A DNA stretch of 64,000 nucleotides, taken from the NCBI GenBank assembly GCA_030537895.1, contig JAUNVA010000006.1:1-64000 (forward strand), in the 5' to 3' direction. A program made the translations under genes and the position numbers. Shown here piece by piece: positions 10,304-16,065 of this stretch. This DNA is from Bowdeniella nasicola (lineage in GTDB: Bacteria > Actinomycetota > Actinomycetes > Actinomycetales > Actinomycetaceae). The notes under the pieces are model-generated. The model searched no databases, had not been told where the DNA came from, and saw only the letters and a program-made list of their open reading frames with translations. Every line of letters begins with the position of its first letter. Within the stretch, counting starts at the first letter, position 1.

Positions 10304-11683
10304 ATGACGAGTTTGGCCATCATCGGCGGGGGTGGATTCCGAGTTCCCCTGATCGTGCACGCACTCGCAACGAGCCCCCTGCGCCTGCAGCGCCTCACCC
10401 TCATGGACGAGGACCCCGACCGCCTGCACACCATGCGCGAGGTGGTCTCGCGCCAGCTCCACGAGGCGGACCTACACCTCGACCTGCGGGTCACGGCGGA
10501 CCTCGCGGAGGCGGTACGCGGCGCTGACGTCATCTTCGTCGCGGTCCGCGTGAGCGGCACGCAGGGGCGAGTGAGTGACGAGCTCCTCGCACTCGAGCAC
10601 GGCCTACTCGGGCAGGAAACCGTGGGCGTCGGCGGAATGGCCTATGCACTGCGCACCATCCCCGTGGCGCGGCGTATCGCGGCCACCATCGCGCAGGAGA
10701 ATCCCGGGGCGTGGACGATTAACTTCACGAACCCCGCCGGCGTCATCACGCAGGCGATGCGTGAGTCGCTCGGCCGGCGGGTCGTCGGGATCTGCGATAC
10801 GCCGATCGGGCTGTTGCGCCGCGCCCGTCGCGCGCTCGGGGTGCACCCGGGCGAAGACGTCGACTTTGATTATCTCGGATTGAACCACCTGGGTTGGCTG
10901 CGTTCCCTCAGCGTGGCCGGTACGGATCTCCTGCCTGATCTCCTCGCCGACGAGCAGCGCCTGGCCGGGCTGGAGGAAGCGGAGCTGATGGGGACGCGCT
11001 GGATCCAGCGCCTCGGAGCACTGCCCAATGAATACCTGTACTACTACTACCGCCATCGTGAGGCGCGTGCGGCGATCACGGCTCGGCAGACTCGCGGGCA
11101 GTTCCTGCACGCCCAACAGGCGGACTTCTACCGCACCGCCGCGACGAGCACCGACCCCTACACGTTGTGGGACCGTACCCGCGCCGAACGTGACGCTTCC
11201 TACATGGCGGAGGCCCGCGCCGAGGATGACCGCTTCGGGCGCGACGCCGAAGAGATTGCCCAAGGCGGGTACCAGGACGTGGCACTCGCGGCCATGTATG
11301 CGCTCCTCCACGACGCGCCAGCGCGCATGATCCTGAACGTCGGGAACACCGATACCCCGGACGGCTCACCCGTGATCGCCGGCCTCAGTGAGGACGCCGT
11401 CATCGAGGTGGGCTGTACCGTGGACGCGGACGGCGCCCACCCCTGGCCGATCGCACCCGCGCGCGGGGACATGCTCGGGCTCATGGCCCAGATCAAGGAG
11501 TGCGACACCCTGCTCTTGGCGGCGACGCAGCGACGGGACGTGGATCTCGCCGTGCGGGCCTTTGCGCTCCACCCACTCGTCGACTCGGTCGACGCGGCGG
11601 AGGCACTACTTACCGCCTACTGCGCAGCGAGCGAACAGATTGCTGCGGCCGTCGGCGTGAGCCGCGCGGCCAGCTCCCCTTAG
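10304..11683 (+). CDS. GH4-family 6-phospho-glycosidase (6-phospho-beta-glucosidase-like)
   Basis: This is 459 residues. Family 4 glycosidases use NAD and a divalent metal to cleave phosphorylated disaccharides. The N-terminal nucleotide-binding IIGGGGFRVP, the DADVIF-like segment GADVIFVAVRVSG, the NFTNPAG motif, GICDTP with the metal-ligand cysteine, and GLNHLGW with its histidine are all present. The GLLGQETVGVGG segment is also typical of 6-phospho-beta-glucosidases (LicH/CelF-like). A phosphotransferase system would normally supply the substrate, but none is in the window. Convergent with the next gene; the stops overlap. Confidence 0.9.
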   Translation: MTSLAIIGGGGFRVPLIVHALATSPLRLQRLTLMDEDPDRLHTMREVVSRQLHEADLHLDLRVTADLAEAVRGADVIFVAVRVSGTQGRVSDELLALEHGLLGQETVGVGGMAYALRTIPVARRIAATIAQENPGAWTINFTNPAGVITQAMRESLGRRVVGICDTPIGLLRRARRALGVHPGEDVDFDYLGLNHLGWLRSLSVAGTDLLPDLLADEQRLAGLEEAELMGTRWIQRLGALPNEYLYYYYRHREARAAITARQTRGQFLHAQQADFYRTAATSTDPYTLWDRTRAERDASYMAEARAEDDRFGRDAEEIAQGGYQDVALAAMYALLHDAPARMILNVGNTDTPDGSPVIAGLSEDAVIEVGCTVDADGAHPWPIAPARGDMLGLMAQIKECDTLLLAATQRRDVDLAVRAFALHPLVDSVDAAEALLTAYCAASEQIAAAVGVSRAASSP

Positions 11684-12483
11684 GACTCCTCCTGGACGCG
11701 GTCCATGAGGCCCGCGATAATGCGGGCGACCTCGGCAGGGGCCTCCAGCGGAGCGAGATGCCCCACGCCGTTGACGGTCTCTACCGCGCATCCGAGGGCC
11801 TCCGCCATGGCCTCGTGGTCGGCCGCGCTCGAGAGCTTATCCTCGGCTCCCCGAATCACGACGGCGGGGACGTCCAGGCCGCGCAGCACCTCGGTGCGAT
11901 CCGGACGTTCGGCTATGGCGAGCTGCGCCCAGGCGATGCCCTCCAGGGGCGCCTGGCCGATCCAATGGACGAGTTCAGTGCGCACCTCGCGATGCTCGGC
12001 GAGGGTCGTATCCCCGAGCATCATCGTGGGCATGGTGCGCATCGAGGTGGCGACCCCGCGGCCCACCTCCTCGGCCATGATGCGCCGGTTCTCGGCGGCC
12101 TCGTCGCCATCGGCCCGAGACTTGGTGTCGATGAGGGCCAGACCCGCGATGAGATCCGGGTGCCGCTCGGCGACCGCCATCGCTACGTAACCGCCCATCG
12201 AGACCCCGGCGAGGACGATTCGATCCAGGCGTGCCTCCGCGCTGGCTGCCGCGATGGCGTCCGCGTAGCACTCGAGACCGAACGGCGAGGAGTCGACGGA
12301 GTCCGCAACCCGGCGTGGCGAGGCGGAGTCCCCAAATCCCGGAGCGTCCGGGGCGATCACCCACCGCTCTCCCAGCTCATTGATCATCGGGTTAAACATC
12401 CGGTGGTCTAGCGGGAAGGCGTGCAACGCTACCAGGGGGATCCCGTCGCGGTTACCGCTCTCGTGATAGCCAAGTTCCGTCAT
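11680..12483 (-). CDS. Alpha/beta-hydrolase fold protein
   Basis: This is 267 residues from the ATG at 12483; the frame is open upstream, but conserved sequence begins here. The nucleophile elbow GVSMGG is near residue 98, the oxyanion-hole segment LHAFPLDHRMF near residue 20, the acid in RGAEDKL and the histidine in NGVGHLAPLEAP. All parts of the Ser-Asp-His triad are therefore in place. The family includes esterases, lipases, lactonases and C-C hydrolases, and the substrate cannot be told. The stop codon shares bases with that of the convergent GH4 gene. Confidence 0.85.
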   Translation of the reverse strand: MTELGYHESGNRDGIPLVALHAFPLDHRMFNPMINELGERWVIAPDAPGFGDSASPRRVADSVDSSPFGLECYADAIAAASAEARLDRIVLAGVSMGGYVAMAVAERHPDLIAGLALIDTKSRADGDEAAENRRIMAEEVGRGVATSMRTMPTMMLGDTTLAEHREVRTELVHWIGQAPLEGIAWAQLAIAERPDRTEVLRGLDVPAVVIRGAEDKLSSAADHEAMAEALGCAVETVNGVGHLAPLEAPAEVARIIAGLMDRVQEES

Positions 12484-12583
12484 CGAGCCTAGGATCTCCT
12501 TTGCGTTGAGAGGCGCGTGTCGCGCAGGTGCGGTCTCTATTATTGCCCGCCGGCCCAAACCTCGCAGGTGAGCCGCGCCTGCC

Positions 12584-12883
12584 TCACCAGGCGGGACGCC
12601 GCCCGAAGCGAGCTTTCCAACACCCGGTGTGCCAGTGCCGCCGCTCGTCGGGCCCTCGGCCGAGGAGGCCCTCTTCCGGCCAGGCCACCACGTGCCACGC
12701 GCCGTCGCTCACCTGTCCACCGCAGCCCGGGCACGTATAGGCCTTTCGAGCACGCACCTCTTGAACGTGATATGCGCCACCGGGGCCCGGCTCCACGCGC
12801 GGGACCGAGCGCAGGCGATCCATGTTCAGGGGGATATGCCCCTGTCCATAGGGGCGCTTGCGTCCCCTCCTCGATCTCGCCAT
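12584..12883 (-). CDS. Small zinc-ribbon-like protein conserved in actinobacteria
   Basis: This is 99 residues. It has a basic N-terminus (ARSRRGRKRPYG), a CPGCGG knuckle near residue 51, then HVVAW and HWHTGCW, which can supply further metal ligands. I recall proteins of this build in many actinobacteria, sometimes labelled ATP/GTP-binding without good reason. The start overlaps the stop of the upstream gene (TGATG), so it is the last cistron of the nagA operon. Role unknown. Confidence 0.75.
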   Translation of the reverse strand: MARSRRGRKRPYGQGHIPLNMDRLRSVPRVEPGPGGAYHVQEVRARKAYTCPGCGGQVSDGAWHVVAWPEEGLLGRGPDERRHWHTGCWKARFGRRPAW

Positions 12884-14127
12884 CAGCGTCTCCGCAGCAG
12901 GCGCCGCAGGCTGCGTCGGCGGTCCTTCGTCTCCGCAGGGCGACGCTGTGCGGGGTCGGCAGCACGGCGTTCGCGCTGATTCGCGAGGAGGTCTCGGAAC
13001 CAGAAGCCTGCCTCGGTCAGCCGAACCTCGCTGCCATCGACCGAAGCGAGCGAGCCGTCACACAGCGAATCAAGAATGCAGGCGACCACCTGGGCGCCAT
13101 CGGCGACGGCAGCGTGCAGTTCGCTCAAGTGTTCGCGCAGATCCACGAGGCGCTCGTGTGGCGCGTCCTCGGCCGAGGGCGCCAGACGCGCGGGCGCACA
13201 GACGACGGAGAGGTCACTCCCCTCGTAGGCGGTGTCGAGGGCCGTCACGATGTCGTAGAGTCCGCGCGCCGAAAGCGCGCGATCATCCGCCGCGGGCGCG
13301 CCCAACTCGAGGCCCTCACATCCCGGCCAGCCCGCGGGGGCCGGTGCGTCCGGGACCGCGCGCACGGTACGCGGCGGGTGGTAGCTGACGCCGAGCTCGT
13401 CGACACGCACGCGGGCGGTGTGCAAATCTCCCGCGTGCACGAACGACCAGTCGGTCAGGTGGCGGGTCCCCTCGATCAGCTCGATCGGATAGGTGGCATC
13501 GAGCAGCGGTCCCAGCACGATTTTGTTGGCAACCAGTTGTGCGCGCTCAGCCGCCAGGTGATCCGCAGAACTGGTTTCGTCGGCCGGGTCGAGCACGGCG
13601 AGGTCGAGCGAGAACCCGACGCGAGCCTCATCGGAGACCTCCGCGCGGATCGCACGGGCGGCCATCCCGTGGGCCAGATTTACGTGGTGCGCGGCACGCA
13701 GCGTCGCGGCCGCCTCCGGACGGCGCGCAAGGGCGACGGGTTCGGGCAGCACAATCCAGCGTTCGACAAGGTCCGCGAGCCCGCGCGCGAGCCCTGCCGC
13801 ATAGTCGGCGTAGCGCTCCGCGCTCGAGCGCTCCGTCCAGCCGCCGGCCTCAGCGAGCGATGCCGGCAGGTCGTGACCCGGCAGGGCCAGCTCGATCGCG
13901 AGGCCCCGCTCGCGCAGCGCCGCGAGCTCGGATCGCACCGTAGCGAGTGGACGTCGCGGGTCCTCGCCCGCGAGATCCGACCAGCGCAGCGCAAAGCGCA
14001 CCGTATCGAGGCCGAGATCGGCGGCCAATGCTGCACACGGTCCGGTCCCCGCGGTGAGTGTGGCTCCCCACCGGAAGGGCGCGGGAAGCGCGACGTGCAA
14101 ATCTCTGATGGTGTCCTTGGTGCTCAT
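12883..14127 (-). CDS. Degenerate GH1-like (pseudo-glycosidase) protein
   Basis: This is 414 residues. The order of landmarks follows family-1 beta-glucosidases: RFALRWSDL near 44, HDLP near 85-88 and GGW near 95-97. Then comes YADYA, a LPEP segment at about 127-130 in place of TxNEP (the acid/base Glu is kept, Asn is lost), and GVSYH in place of GVNYY. The region where the ITENG nucleophile should sit reads SVVCAPARL, so the nucleophile glutamate is absent. The helical C-terminal region (REHLSELHAAVADG) still matches. It is therefore probably not a hydrolase; binding or a structural role is possible. The ATG overlaps the nagA stop by 4 bases. The tail is very basic. Confidence 0.7.
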   Translation of the reverse strand: MSTKDTIRDLHVALPAPFRWGATLTAGTGPCAALAADLGLDTVRFALRWSDLAGEDPRRPLATVRSELAALRERGLAIELALPGHDLPASLAEAGGWTERSSAERYADYAAGLARGLADLVERWIVLPEPVALARRPEAAATLRAAHHVNLAHGMAARAIRAEVSDEARVGFSLDLAVLDPADETSSADHLAAERAQLVANKIVLGPLLDATYPIELIEGTRHLTDWSFVHAGDLHTARVRVDELGVSYHPPRTVRAVPDAPAPAGWPGCEGLELGAPAADDRALSARGLYDIVTALDTAYEGSDLSVVCAPARLAPSAEDAPHERLVDLREHLSELHAAVADGAQVVACILDSLCDGSLASVDGSEVRLTEAGFWFRDLLANQRERRAADPAQRRPAETKDRRRSLRRLLRRR

Positions 14128-15320
14128 CGCACTCCCGCCACATTGGCTCCGCCGTGCAGAACCGTGATGGGCTGCAGGTTCTCATCGGTGATGAGCACGT
14201 CAGCCCGGGCCCCGGACGTGAGGGTCCCGATGTCGGTGCGACCGAGAAGCCGAGCGGGCCCGACTGTACAGACGTAGACGGCATCCAGGAGTGCGACTCC
14301 CGCCCCCACCATGGTGCGGATCTGATCGAGCAGGTGGGAGGTGCCGCCCGCGATCGAGTCACCGTTGGTAAGGCGAGCGGTGCCGTCGCGCACGGTGACG
14401 TCCATCGACCCGAGGCGATAGGTGCCATCGGCCATACCGGTCGCGGCCATCGCATCAGTGACGAAGACGACGGCGTCGCGCCCGAGGAGCTCGAGCGTGT
14501 GTCGCACGAGCGAGGGAGCGACGTGGGCGCCGTCGGCGATCAGTTCGACGACCAGCTCGCCACGCTGGGCTGCCGCAAGTAGGGCCGGGATCGGGCCCGG
14601 ATCCCGGTGGTGCAACGCGCGCATCCCGTTAAACAGATGCGTCACGCTCGCGCGCGCCGAGGGCGCACCGCCCGCTGCCGATAGCTGCGTGGCTGCCGCC
14701 GCGACCGCCGTTTCGGTCTCCTCCGGACCGGCGTCGGTGTGGCCGAAGGAGGGGAGCGCCCCCGCCTCAATCAGCACGTCAACGACGCCGGTGACGCCCT
14801 CCTTTTCTGGGGCGAGTGTCATCGCGAAAGCGTAGGGGCCGGCCACCTCACACAGGCGTCGTGTGAGATCGGCATCGGGCGCGACAATGAGGTTTGGGTC
14901 CTGGGCTCCACAACGTTCACAGGAGATGAATGGGCCCTCCCAGTGGATTCCCACGAGGTCTCCCGACTCACACGCCCGACGCAGTAACGCGGTACGTTCG
15001 AGCAGGGTGTCACCATCCGCCGTCACGGTCGAGGCTACGAGCGAGGTGGTGCCGTGCCGGCGGTGTTCGGCCACCGCCGTTCGCACATCCTCGAGACTCG
15101 TGGCGTCGGGGAAGGAAGCCCCTCCCCCACCATGACAGTGCACGTCGATGAGGCCCGGCATGAGATAGCCGTGCACCTCGCGAGCACCGTCGGCGCTCGG
15201 GGCGTCCGGCCCGTCCGTGGGACCGGCATAGGCGATGGTCTCACCGTCTACGGCGAGCAGCGCGTCGTCGATCAGCCGGTCGGCGGTGATGAGGGGGCCG
15301 CGAAACAGCGTGGAGGTCAT
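14124..15320 (-). CDS. nagA: N-acetylglucosamine-6-phosphate deacetylase
   Basis: This is 398 residues, standard for the family. It deacetylates GlcNAc-6-P to glucosamine-6-P in amino-sugar and cell-wall recycling. Landmarks are DVHCHGGGG (metal histidines), HWEGPFIS with the metal glutamate, GHTDAG, HLFNGM, ADGAHV and the catalytic aspartate in VTDAMAATGM. A CATAAT element ends six bases before the ATG, suggesting a leaderless mRNA. It is the first gene of an operon with the GH1-like and zinc-ribbon genes. nagB is not in the window. Confidence 0.95.
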   Translation of the reverse strand: MTSTLFRGPLITADRLIDDALLAVDGETIAYAGPTDGPDAPSADGAREVHGYLMPGLIDVHCHGGGGASFPDATSLEDVRTAVAEHRRHGTTSLVASTVTADGDTLLERTALLRRACESGDLVGIHWEGPFISCERCGAQDPNLIVAPDADLTRRLCEVAGPYAFAMTLAPEKEGVTGVVDVLIEAGALPSFGHTDAGPEETETAVAAAATQLSAAGGAPSARASVTHLFNGMRALHHRDPGPIPALLAAAQRGELVVELIADGAHVAPSLVRHTLELLGRDAVVFVTDAMAATGMADGTYRLGSMDVTVRDGTARLTNGDSIAGGTSHLLDQIRTMVGAGVALLDAVYVCTVGPARLLGRTDIGTLTSGARADVLITDENLQPITVLHGGANVAGVR

Positions 15321-15343: not shown

Positions 15344-16039
15344 CTAGAAGAGTCTGGCCTCGGGGTCGTCTAGGCCACGCATCTCGTCGTAGTCCAGCGT
15401 GAGGCAGGAGATTCCACGATCCTGTGCAAGCACGCGGGCCTGCGGCTTAATCTCCTGGGCGGCGAAGACGCCGCGCACCGGGGCGAGCAGCGGGTCGCGG
15501 TTCAAGAGCTCGAGGTAGCGGGTCAGCTGCTCGACGCCGTCGATCTCGCCGCGTCGCTTAATCTCGATCGCCACGGCATGGCCCTCAGCGTCGCGCGCCA
15601 GGATGTCCACCGGGCCAATCGCCGTCGGGTATTCGCGCCGCACCAGGCGGTAGCCCGCACCCACCCGATAGATCTGGTCGGCCAAGAGTTCCTGGAGGTG
15701 AGCCTCGACCCCGTCCTTCGTGAGGCCCGGGTCAATCCCGAGGTCATGAGTGAGGTCGGCGTGGATGCTCGCCACAGAAATCACGAGCCGGTCCGAGGTC
15801 TTCTCATGAGTCACCGTCCACACCTCGGTGATGCCTGCCTCCCGCTCGGCCTCATCTGCCTTTCGGGTGTGCAGAACGCACGGCGTCGTCATCCAATTCA
15901 GGGGCTTGTAGGAACCACCGTCGGAGTGGATGAGAACGGAACCGTCGGCCTTCATCATGATGACGCGCGTGGCCAGAGGCAGGTGGGAGGTCAGGCGCCC
16001 GGTGTAGTCCACCGAACACTCACAGATCACGAGACGCAC
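15344..16039 (-). CDS. nucS: Endonuclease NucS (non-canonical mismatch repair)
   Basis: This is 231 residues from a GTG at 16039, matching the family N-terminus [16 protein letters not shown]. NucS/EndoMS cuts both strands at mismatches and replaces MutS-MutL in most actinobacteria. The N-terminal DNA-binding half includes [20 protein letters not shown]. The C-terminal PD-(D/E)XK nuclease core shows GPVDILARD and AIEIKRR with the catalytic Asp, Glu and Lys. No ribosome site is seen; a good TATACT lies 7 nt before the GTG. It stands alone after the atp operon terminator. Confidence 0.95.
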
Positions 16040-16046
16040 GCCTAGC

Positions 16047-16052
16047 AGTATA
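16047..16052 (-). promoter_or_regulatory. -10 TATACT before nucS, probable leaderless start
   Basis: On the minus strand TATACT is followed by seven bases (GCTAGGC) and then the GTG of nucS. It lies between the atp terminator hairpin and nucS, so nucS has its own promoter. Confidence 0.5.
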
Positions 16053-16065
16053 GGCACGCACGCGA

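Follow-up and report, generated by a model that had tools for sequence, protein, structure and literature searches.

A catalytically dead GH1 homologue in Bowdeniella nasicola: recurrent loss of catalysis at one bacterial locus and possible retention for protein contact

Introduction

Bowdeniella nasicola possesses a GH1 homologue of 414 amino acids that has lost its sugar site and lies in a gene block shared with fully active orthologues. Copies at this locus have lost catalysis independently in several related genera, the lost parts were removed in frame, and one outer side of the barrel has stayed constrained as protein after the loss. The explanation that we favor, at somewhat better than an even chance, is that the gene encodes a bacterial GH1 pseudoenzyme retained for protein contact on its outer face. 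The gene was found in a stretch of 64,000 nucleotides (contig JAUNVA010000006.1, positions 1 to 64,000; hereafter the window), and its features and neighbors are listed in Table 1.

GH1 pseudoenzymes are already known in animals; what is new here is that they recur at a single bacterial locus, where intermediates can be seen and an outer face is protected. We found no report of a bacterial GH1 pseudoenzyme in the open-access literature, which is weak evidence of absence, as most subscription papers lie outside such a search.

Table 1. Features of the window around the GH1 homologue
Feature	Position	Strand	Evidence or remark
Pseudo-GH1, catalytically dead GH1 homologue, 414 aa	12883..14127	(-)	ORF, PF00232, site table, AF2 barrel model
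Glu129, GH1 acid/base column, in LPEPV	13741..13743	(-)	Kept in the window copy, not in all dead orthologues
Cys310, nucleophile column, Glu in active orthologues	13198..13200	(-)	Site table
Arg-rich C-terminal tail (...KDRRRSLRRLLRRR)	12886..12930	(-)	Common to active orthologues of the genus
Protected segment, residues 144-250: helix 4, strand 5, helix 5, connector to strand 6, strand 6	13378..13698	(-)	
nagA-like gene (N-acetylglucosamine-6-phosphate deacetylase)	14124..15320	(-)	TIGR00221, E 8e-60, just under its cut-off
99-aa gene, CxxC...HxxC pattern, zinc-ribbon-like	12584..12883	(-)	ATG overlaps the GH1 stop (TGATG)
Alpha/beta hydrolase (abh), fourth gene of the conserved block	11680..12558	(-)	
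NucS-like gene upstream of nagA	15344..16057	(-)	Presumed NucS-like from its N-terminal sequence

Results

The window protein matched Pfam PF00232 with an E-value of 5e-27 and a score of 94.8 bits, passing the cut-off of 22.6, and its best solved relative was 1gnx, a Streptomyces beta-glucosidase (E 3e-43); on these matches its homology to GH1 is certain. When 13 GH1 relatives were included in the alignment, AF2 predicted a full (beta/alpha)8 barrel like that of solved GH1 proteins (pLDDT 82, pTM 0.85), a model that is guided by active relatives. The best solved match of this model was again 1gnx (Z 41.8, 366 residues aligned, 34% identity), and beta-Klotho (5vaq) matched as well (Z 38.8). Since AF2 without an alignment gave a poor model from the single sequence (pLDDT 39), the fold claim rests on homology. 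The original prediction of a GH1 fold without its nucleophile, to be checked by structure prediction against GH1, was borne out, the loss of the nucleophile being seen by alignment.

Nine of the ten canonical positions of the sugar site are lost, and the only one kept is Glu129. As had been predicted, the Asn of NEP (now PEP, Pro128) and the nucleophile Glu of ENG (now CAP, Cys310) are gone. The loss extends beyond these positions: the Gln of QIEG is deleted, the Asn and Tyr of NYY are replaced by Ser248 and His250, the Trp of LWS is Asp353, and both the Glu and the Trp of FEW are deleted. Of the landmarks that were thought to be retained, GGW, YADYA and the acid/base Glu stand, whereas HDLP is not a true catalytic landmark, because active orthologues read HWDLP and the His column is here occupied by Gly84, the H of the window motif sitting in the Trp column. 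Among the marks of a retaining beta-glycosidase, the acid/base Glu after strand 4 is therefore present, the nucleophile Glu in [IV]TENG after strand 7 is absent, and the other sugar-binding residues are all replaced or deleted. Judged from these residues, the protein is almost certainly not a glycosidase. That some GH1 activity remains, with a different Glu or Asp acting as the nucleophile, is extremely improbable: E319 and D320 do lie in the loop after strand 7, but the nucleophile column is 9-10 residues before them, they adjoin a low-confidence stretch of the model and they are not conserved in the other dead copies, while the residues that would hold the sugar are gone. By alignment, no carboxylate substitute for the nucleophile was found in the window protein.

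Compared with the closest active orthologues, the window copy has undergone 13-15 gap events, all of them in frame and within a single open frame, which argues that the losses are more than chance; the gene is apparently under selection even now. A second GH1 gene, in which every catalytic motif is intact, is present elsewhere in the genome (contig C17, L134 4028-5692), so that the loss of the linked GH1 need not cost the cell its beta-glucosidase. Inspection of the single 414-aa ORF by eye revealed no obvious N-terminal signal or hydrophobic segment. Basic tails like that of the window protein occur in genus g15, in both dead and active copies, and in G015 and G148. Within the DNA of this Arg-rich tail stands GGAGA, which may serve the 99-aa gene as its ribosome site, and because of this overlap we gave the tail little weight. 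On the plus strand, a 586-aa open frame (12517-14277) lies opposite GH1 and a portion of nagA; such frames are typical of GC-rich coding DNA, and it was not taken as a gene.

The locus is common to dead and active copies. In G002 and G003, the two other genomes of the genus with nagA, the block likewise runs from nagA through GH1 and the 99-aa gene to abh, and the Arg-rich tail is shared; unlike the 414-aa window protein, their GH1 proteins (515 and 506 aa, respectively) have every catalytic motif intact. A fourth genome of the genus, which is 76% complete, showed neither nagA nor GH1. The predicted overlap of the GH1 start with nagA was confirmed, the ATG at 14125-14127 sharing four bases with the nagA ORF. 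As a specific clue, however, the coupling to nagA did not hold up: the same ATGA overlap is found in fully active orthologues, and nagA is absent upstream of the dead genes of G017 and G151, so the link to nagA is not specific to dead copies. Read across the orthologues, the overlap is ancestral. A GH4-family gene (10304-11683, plus strand) lies beside the block in the window, and its counterpart in G003 (L092 209-1598, 72% identity) is found at the opposite side of the block, so this gene has moved relative to nagA within the genus.

We searched 213 genomes of the family for nagA, the 99-aa gene and GH1, and counted linkage from coordinates and fetched loci. In 28 genomes, which belong to ten genera, GH1 adjoins the 99-aa gene. 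Many other genomes have nagA directly against the 99-aa gene and no GH1 at the locus; for most of the family's genera, the 99-aa gene is still found there while GH1 is missing. The 99-aa gene is the most constant neighbor of the linked GH1, and it was retained beside all six dead GH1 genes. In G151 the place of nagA is occupied by what we take, from its sequence, to be a NucS-like gene, and in G017 by a presumably branching-enzyme-like gene, the NucS-like gene lying further upstream; in both, the dead GH1 is still beside the 99-aa gene. Outside the family, 60 loci of the 99-aa gene were fetched, and GH1 lay directly upstream in 42, all 42 being intact. Since the pair thus recurs outside the family and in two dead lineages without nagA, the GH1/99-aa link is order-wide, wider than the nagA link and probably older. 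The 99-aa CxxC...HxxC protein is itself present almost throughout the order (277 of 347 sampled genomes at E <= 1e-6), and none of the libraries searched assigned it a function.

The 28 linked GH1 genes comprise 21 that are intact where readable, six that are dead and one that is half-dead. The dead copies fall in five genera: the window gene (G000), G216 and G017 of genus g15, G016, G005 and G151. In the half-dead copy of G215, NEP has become DEP and ENG has become VGG, while the long loops are still present; read from its motifs, this copy is an intermediate that lost the nucleophile and the NEP Asn and kept its loops. Genus g15 contains a stepwise series, from active G217 (L090) through half-dead G215 (L089) to pruned G216 (L086) and G017 (L082). 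The most pruned copy is that of G151 (L079), which at about 301 aa still reads NHVVLGPLLDGSYPV...DWDHVRPGDLVAIRRRLDVL.

A tree was built from 28 GH1 rows, of which 27 are linked genes from the family and one is an outgroup. In it, the window gene joined G002 and G003 (99/100), and G216 and G017 fell within genus g15, alongside the active copy of G217 and the half-dead copy of G215 (97/98). The dead state requires four changes on this tree, at least three of them on well-supported branches; the placement of G005, G016 and G151 is weakened by their long branches. A single origin of all dead copies was rejected, as the best tree with them as one clade had a p-AU of 0.0056. A broken-frame pseudogene was likewise rejected, because none of the six dead copies has an internal stop or frameshift, the stops of G005 and G151 being gene ends, and a sequencing artefact is unlikely, the dead copies of G005 and G016 lying in complete one-contig genomes. 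No dead copy was found outside the family, either among the 42 GH1 genes that adjoin the 99-aa gene at the 60 sampled loci or among the best order-wide matches of a dead-copy profile.

Much the same loops have been lost repeatedly: that of strand 1 with QIEG, those following NEP and NYY, that of the nucleophile and that with FEW/KRFG. Each dead copy shows 12-17 gap events relative to active references, all of them in frame. The substitutions themselves are not shared. A search for orthologues keeping the same substitutions, as proposed with the original prediction, yielded none; the losses are independent, the nucleophile column holds C, L, S, A, P or a gap, and the acid/base Glu is gone in four of the five other dead orthologues. 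This variability bears on the idea of a new enzyme with a different active site on the same barrel, since the dead proteins share no new residue on the catalytic face. TIM barrels are often re-used, Cys310 stands at the former nucleophile place and one loop of the catalytic face, that between strand 5 and helix 5, is well kept (0.77 of its conserved residues); even so, we regard a new enzyme as quite improbable.

The residues that survive are not evenly distributed. With a residue counted as conserved where the nearest active references are in agreement, the window copy kept 72% of such residues within 144-250 and 43% in the rest. Five dead copies kept 72-80% in this segment versus 43-47% elsewhere (Fisher p 5e-6 to 7e-8), and G151 kept 59% versus 42% (p 0.008). 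Active controls compared with the same references showed no significant contrast in eight of nine comparisons, the remaining one giving p 0.02. The boundaries of the segment were picked after the alignment had been viewed; it is the recurrence of the contrast in each dead lineage that carries the point. The contrast also persisted when the comparison was confined to helices, strands and far-face loops taken together (p 1.6e-10 to 8e-4).

With structural elements taken from the AF2 model, the kept fraction in dead copies was 0.74 for helix 4, 0.83 for helix 5, 0.84 for the connector between helix 5 and strand 6, and 0.72 for helix 6. It was 0.43-0.45 for strands 5 and 6, 0.38-0.45 for most other strands and 0.81 for strand 4, which offers few positions, and it was mostly 0.06-0.40 for the pocket loops. 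In a (beta/alpha)8 barrel, the helices lie outside and the connector between helix 5 and strand 6 lies on the face opposite the active site. By this topology, the protected part is an outer side rather than the pocket or the interior strands; as the AF2 model leans on active relatives, this placement rests on GH1 topology.

Substitution rates showed the same contrast. On the window branch, dN reckoned from pairwise values was about 0.2 in the protected core versus about 0.65-0.72 in the flanks, whereas in the active pair G002-G003 it was 0.175 in the core versus 0.117-0.157 outside, so that the core is not slower there; dS is high, which makes dN/dS values rough. Identity between the window and G002 was 63% in the core, comparable to that of the neighboring genes (nagA 66%, abh 60% and the 99-aa gene 67%). 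Synonymous sites within the core have diverged, which indicates that the constraint acts on the protein and not on DNA or RNA and rules out an overlapping DNA or RNA element in the segment.

These patterns bear directly on two other explanations. One, the main rival to our reading, is that the gene is decaying and its product useless, the frame being held open by translational coupling to the 99-aa gene and abh on the way to full loss; frameshifts or stops would uncouple downstream translation, and in-frame deletions alone would survive. Overlaps of the ATGA/TGATG type at both GH1 ends in most dead and active copies, gaps that are exclusively in frame, and the frequency in the family of the GH1-less end state, in which nagA abuts the 99-aa gene, all accord with it. 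Coupling, however, constrains the frame and not the residues. A coupled relic would have no residue constraint beyond the open frame, whereas the same outer segment is protected in each separately dead lineage, against about 45% kept in the rest, and it evolves at the pace of the neighboring working genes. We consider such a relic unlikely, although it retains an appreciable probability.

The other explanation is a sensor of sugar or wall fragments that binds a glycan uncut and regulates amino-sugar use, close to the original suggestion that wall or amino-sugar fragments are bound without cleavage. GH1 ancestry, the adjoining nagA and the acid/base Glu of the window protein would suit such a sensor. 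It is nonetheless very improbable, given that nearly the whole sugar site is lost, the pocket loops are deleted, few parts are as poorly conserved as the loops of the catalytic face (which keep mostly 6-40% of conserved residues), the acid/base Glu is missing from most other dead orthologues and two dead copies have no nagA beside them. Glycan binding is thus unsupported. The protein may still regulate the pathway, as was also suggested, but by way of an outer protein surface and not of the sugar site.

Discussion

Retention for protein contact, which we prefer, would imply the following course. The ancestor would have been an ordinary beta-glucosidase within the conserved block of nagA, GH1, the 99-aa gene and abh. 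Catalytic residues would have been lost first and active-site loops next, always in frame, separately in the species of the window and in several related genera, with the barrel and one outer side kept. The contact surface would be made up of helices 4, 5 and 6 together with the loop that follows strand 5 and the long connector that follows helix 5. We infer from the conservation pattern that this surface binds a protein; the likeliest candidate partners are the 99-aa zinc-ribbon-like protein, which the same block encodes, or a further molecule of GH1 itself. The contact function would predate the catalytic loss, and active orthologues may share it. It is not essential in general, as most genera of the family lack GH1 at the locus while the 99-aa gene persists.

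Among known systems, the Streptomyces protein 1gnx and related actinobacterial GH1 proteins are alike to the window protein in fold and family, but 1gnx is of the active type, whereas the window protein keeps the acid/base Glu alone of the ten site positions. The linked GH1 proteins of G002 and G003 share its locus and neighbors and differ from it in their catalytic motifs and length, as described above. A further parallel is found in alpha- and beta-Klotho, animal GH1 pseudoenzymes that act as FGF co-receptors and in which one of the two glutamates is replaced in each domain (PMC10229096). Klotho and the window protein both have a GH1 barrel with a catalytic Glu lost, and Klotho serves as a protein receptor (PMC10229096). 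Unlike the membrane-bound, tandem-domain Klotho, the window protein has one domain and no obvious signal peptide; it is encoded in a bacterial gene block, its pocket is pruned and its kind has several independent origins. The conservation pattern points towards a possible Klotho-like binding of a protein ligand. A broader proposal, which we put forward tentatively and at somewhat less than an even chance, is that the order-wide GH1/99-aa pair has a hidden non-catalytic role on the outer helices, in active enzymes too, and that this role is exposed where catalysis was repeatedly dropped, which would be a bacterial parallel to Klotho whose repeated steps can still be seen in genus g15.

Most work on pseudoenzymes has dealt with single events that follow a gene duplication. 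In the present case, a syntenic gene has lost catalysis at least three times in one bacterial family, and active, half-dead and dead states are found in related species. GH1 annotations in this family can be wrong and call for caution. The residues that survive mark a candidate second function, so that the role of the widespread and unexplained GH1/99-aa pair becomes directly testable.
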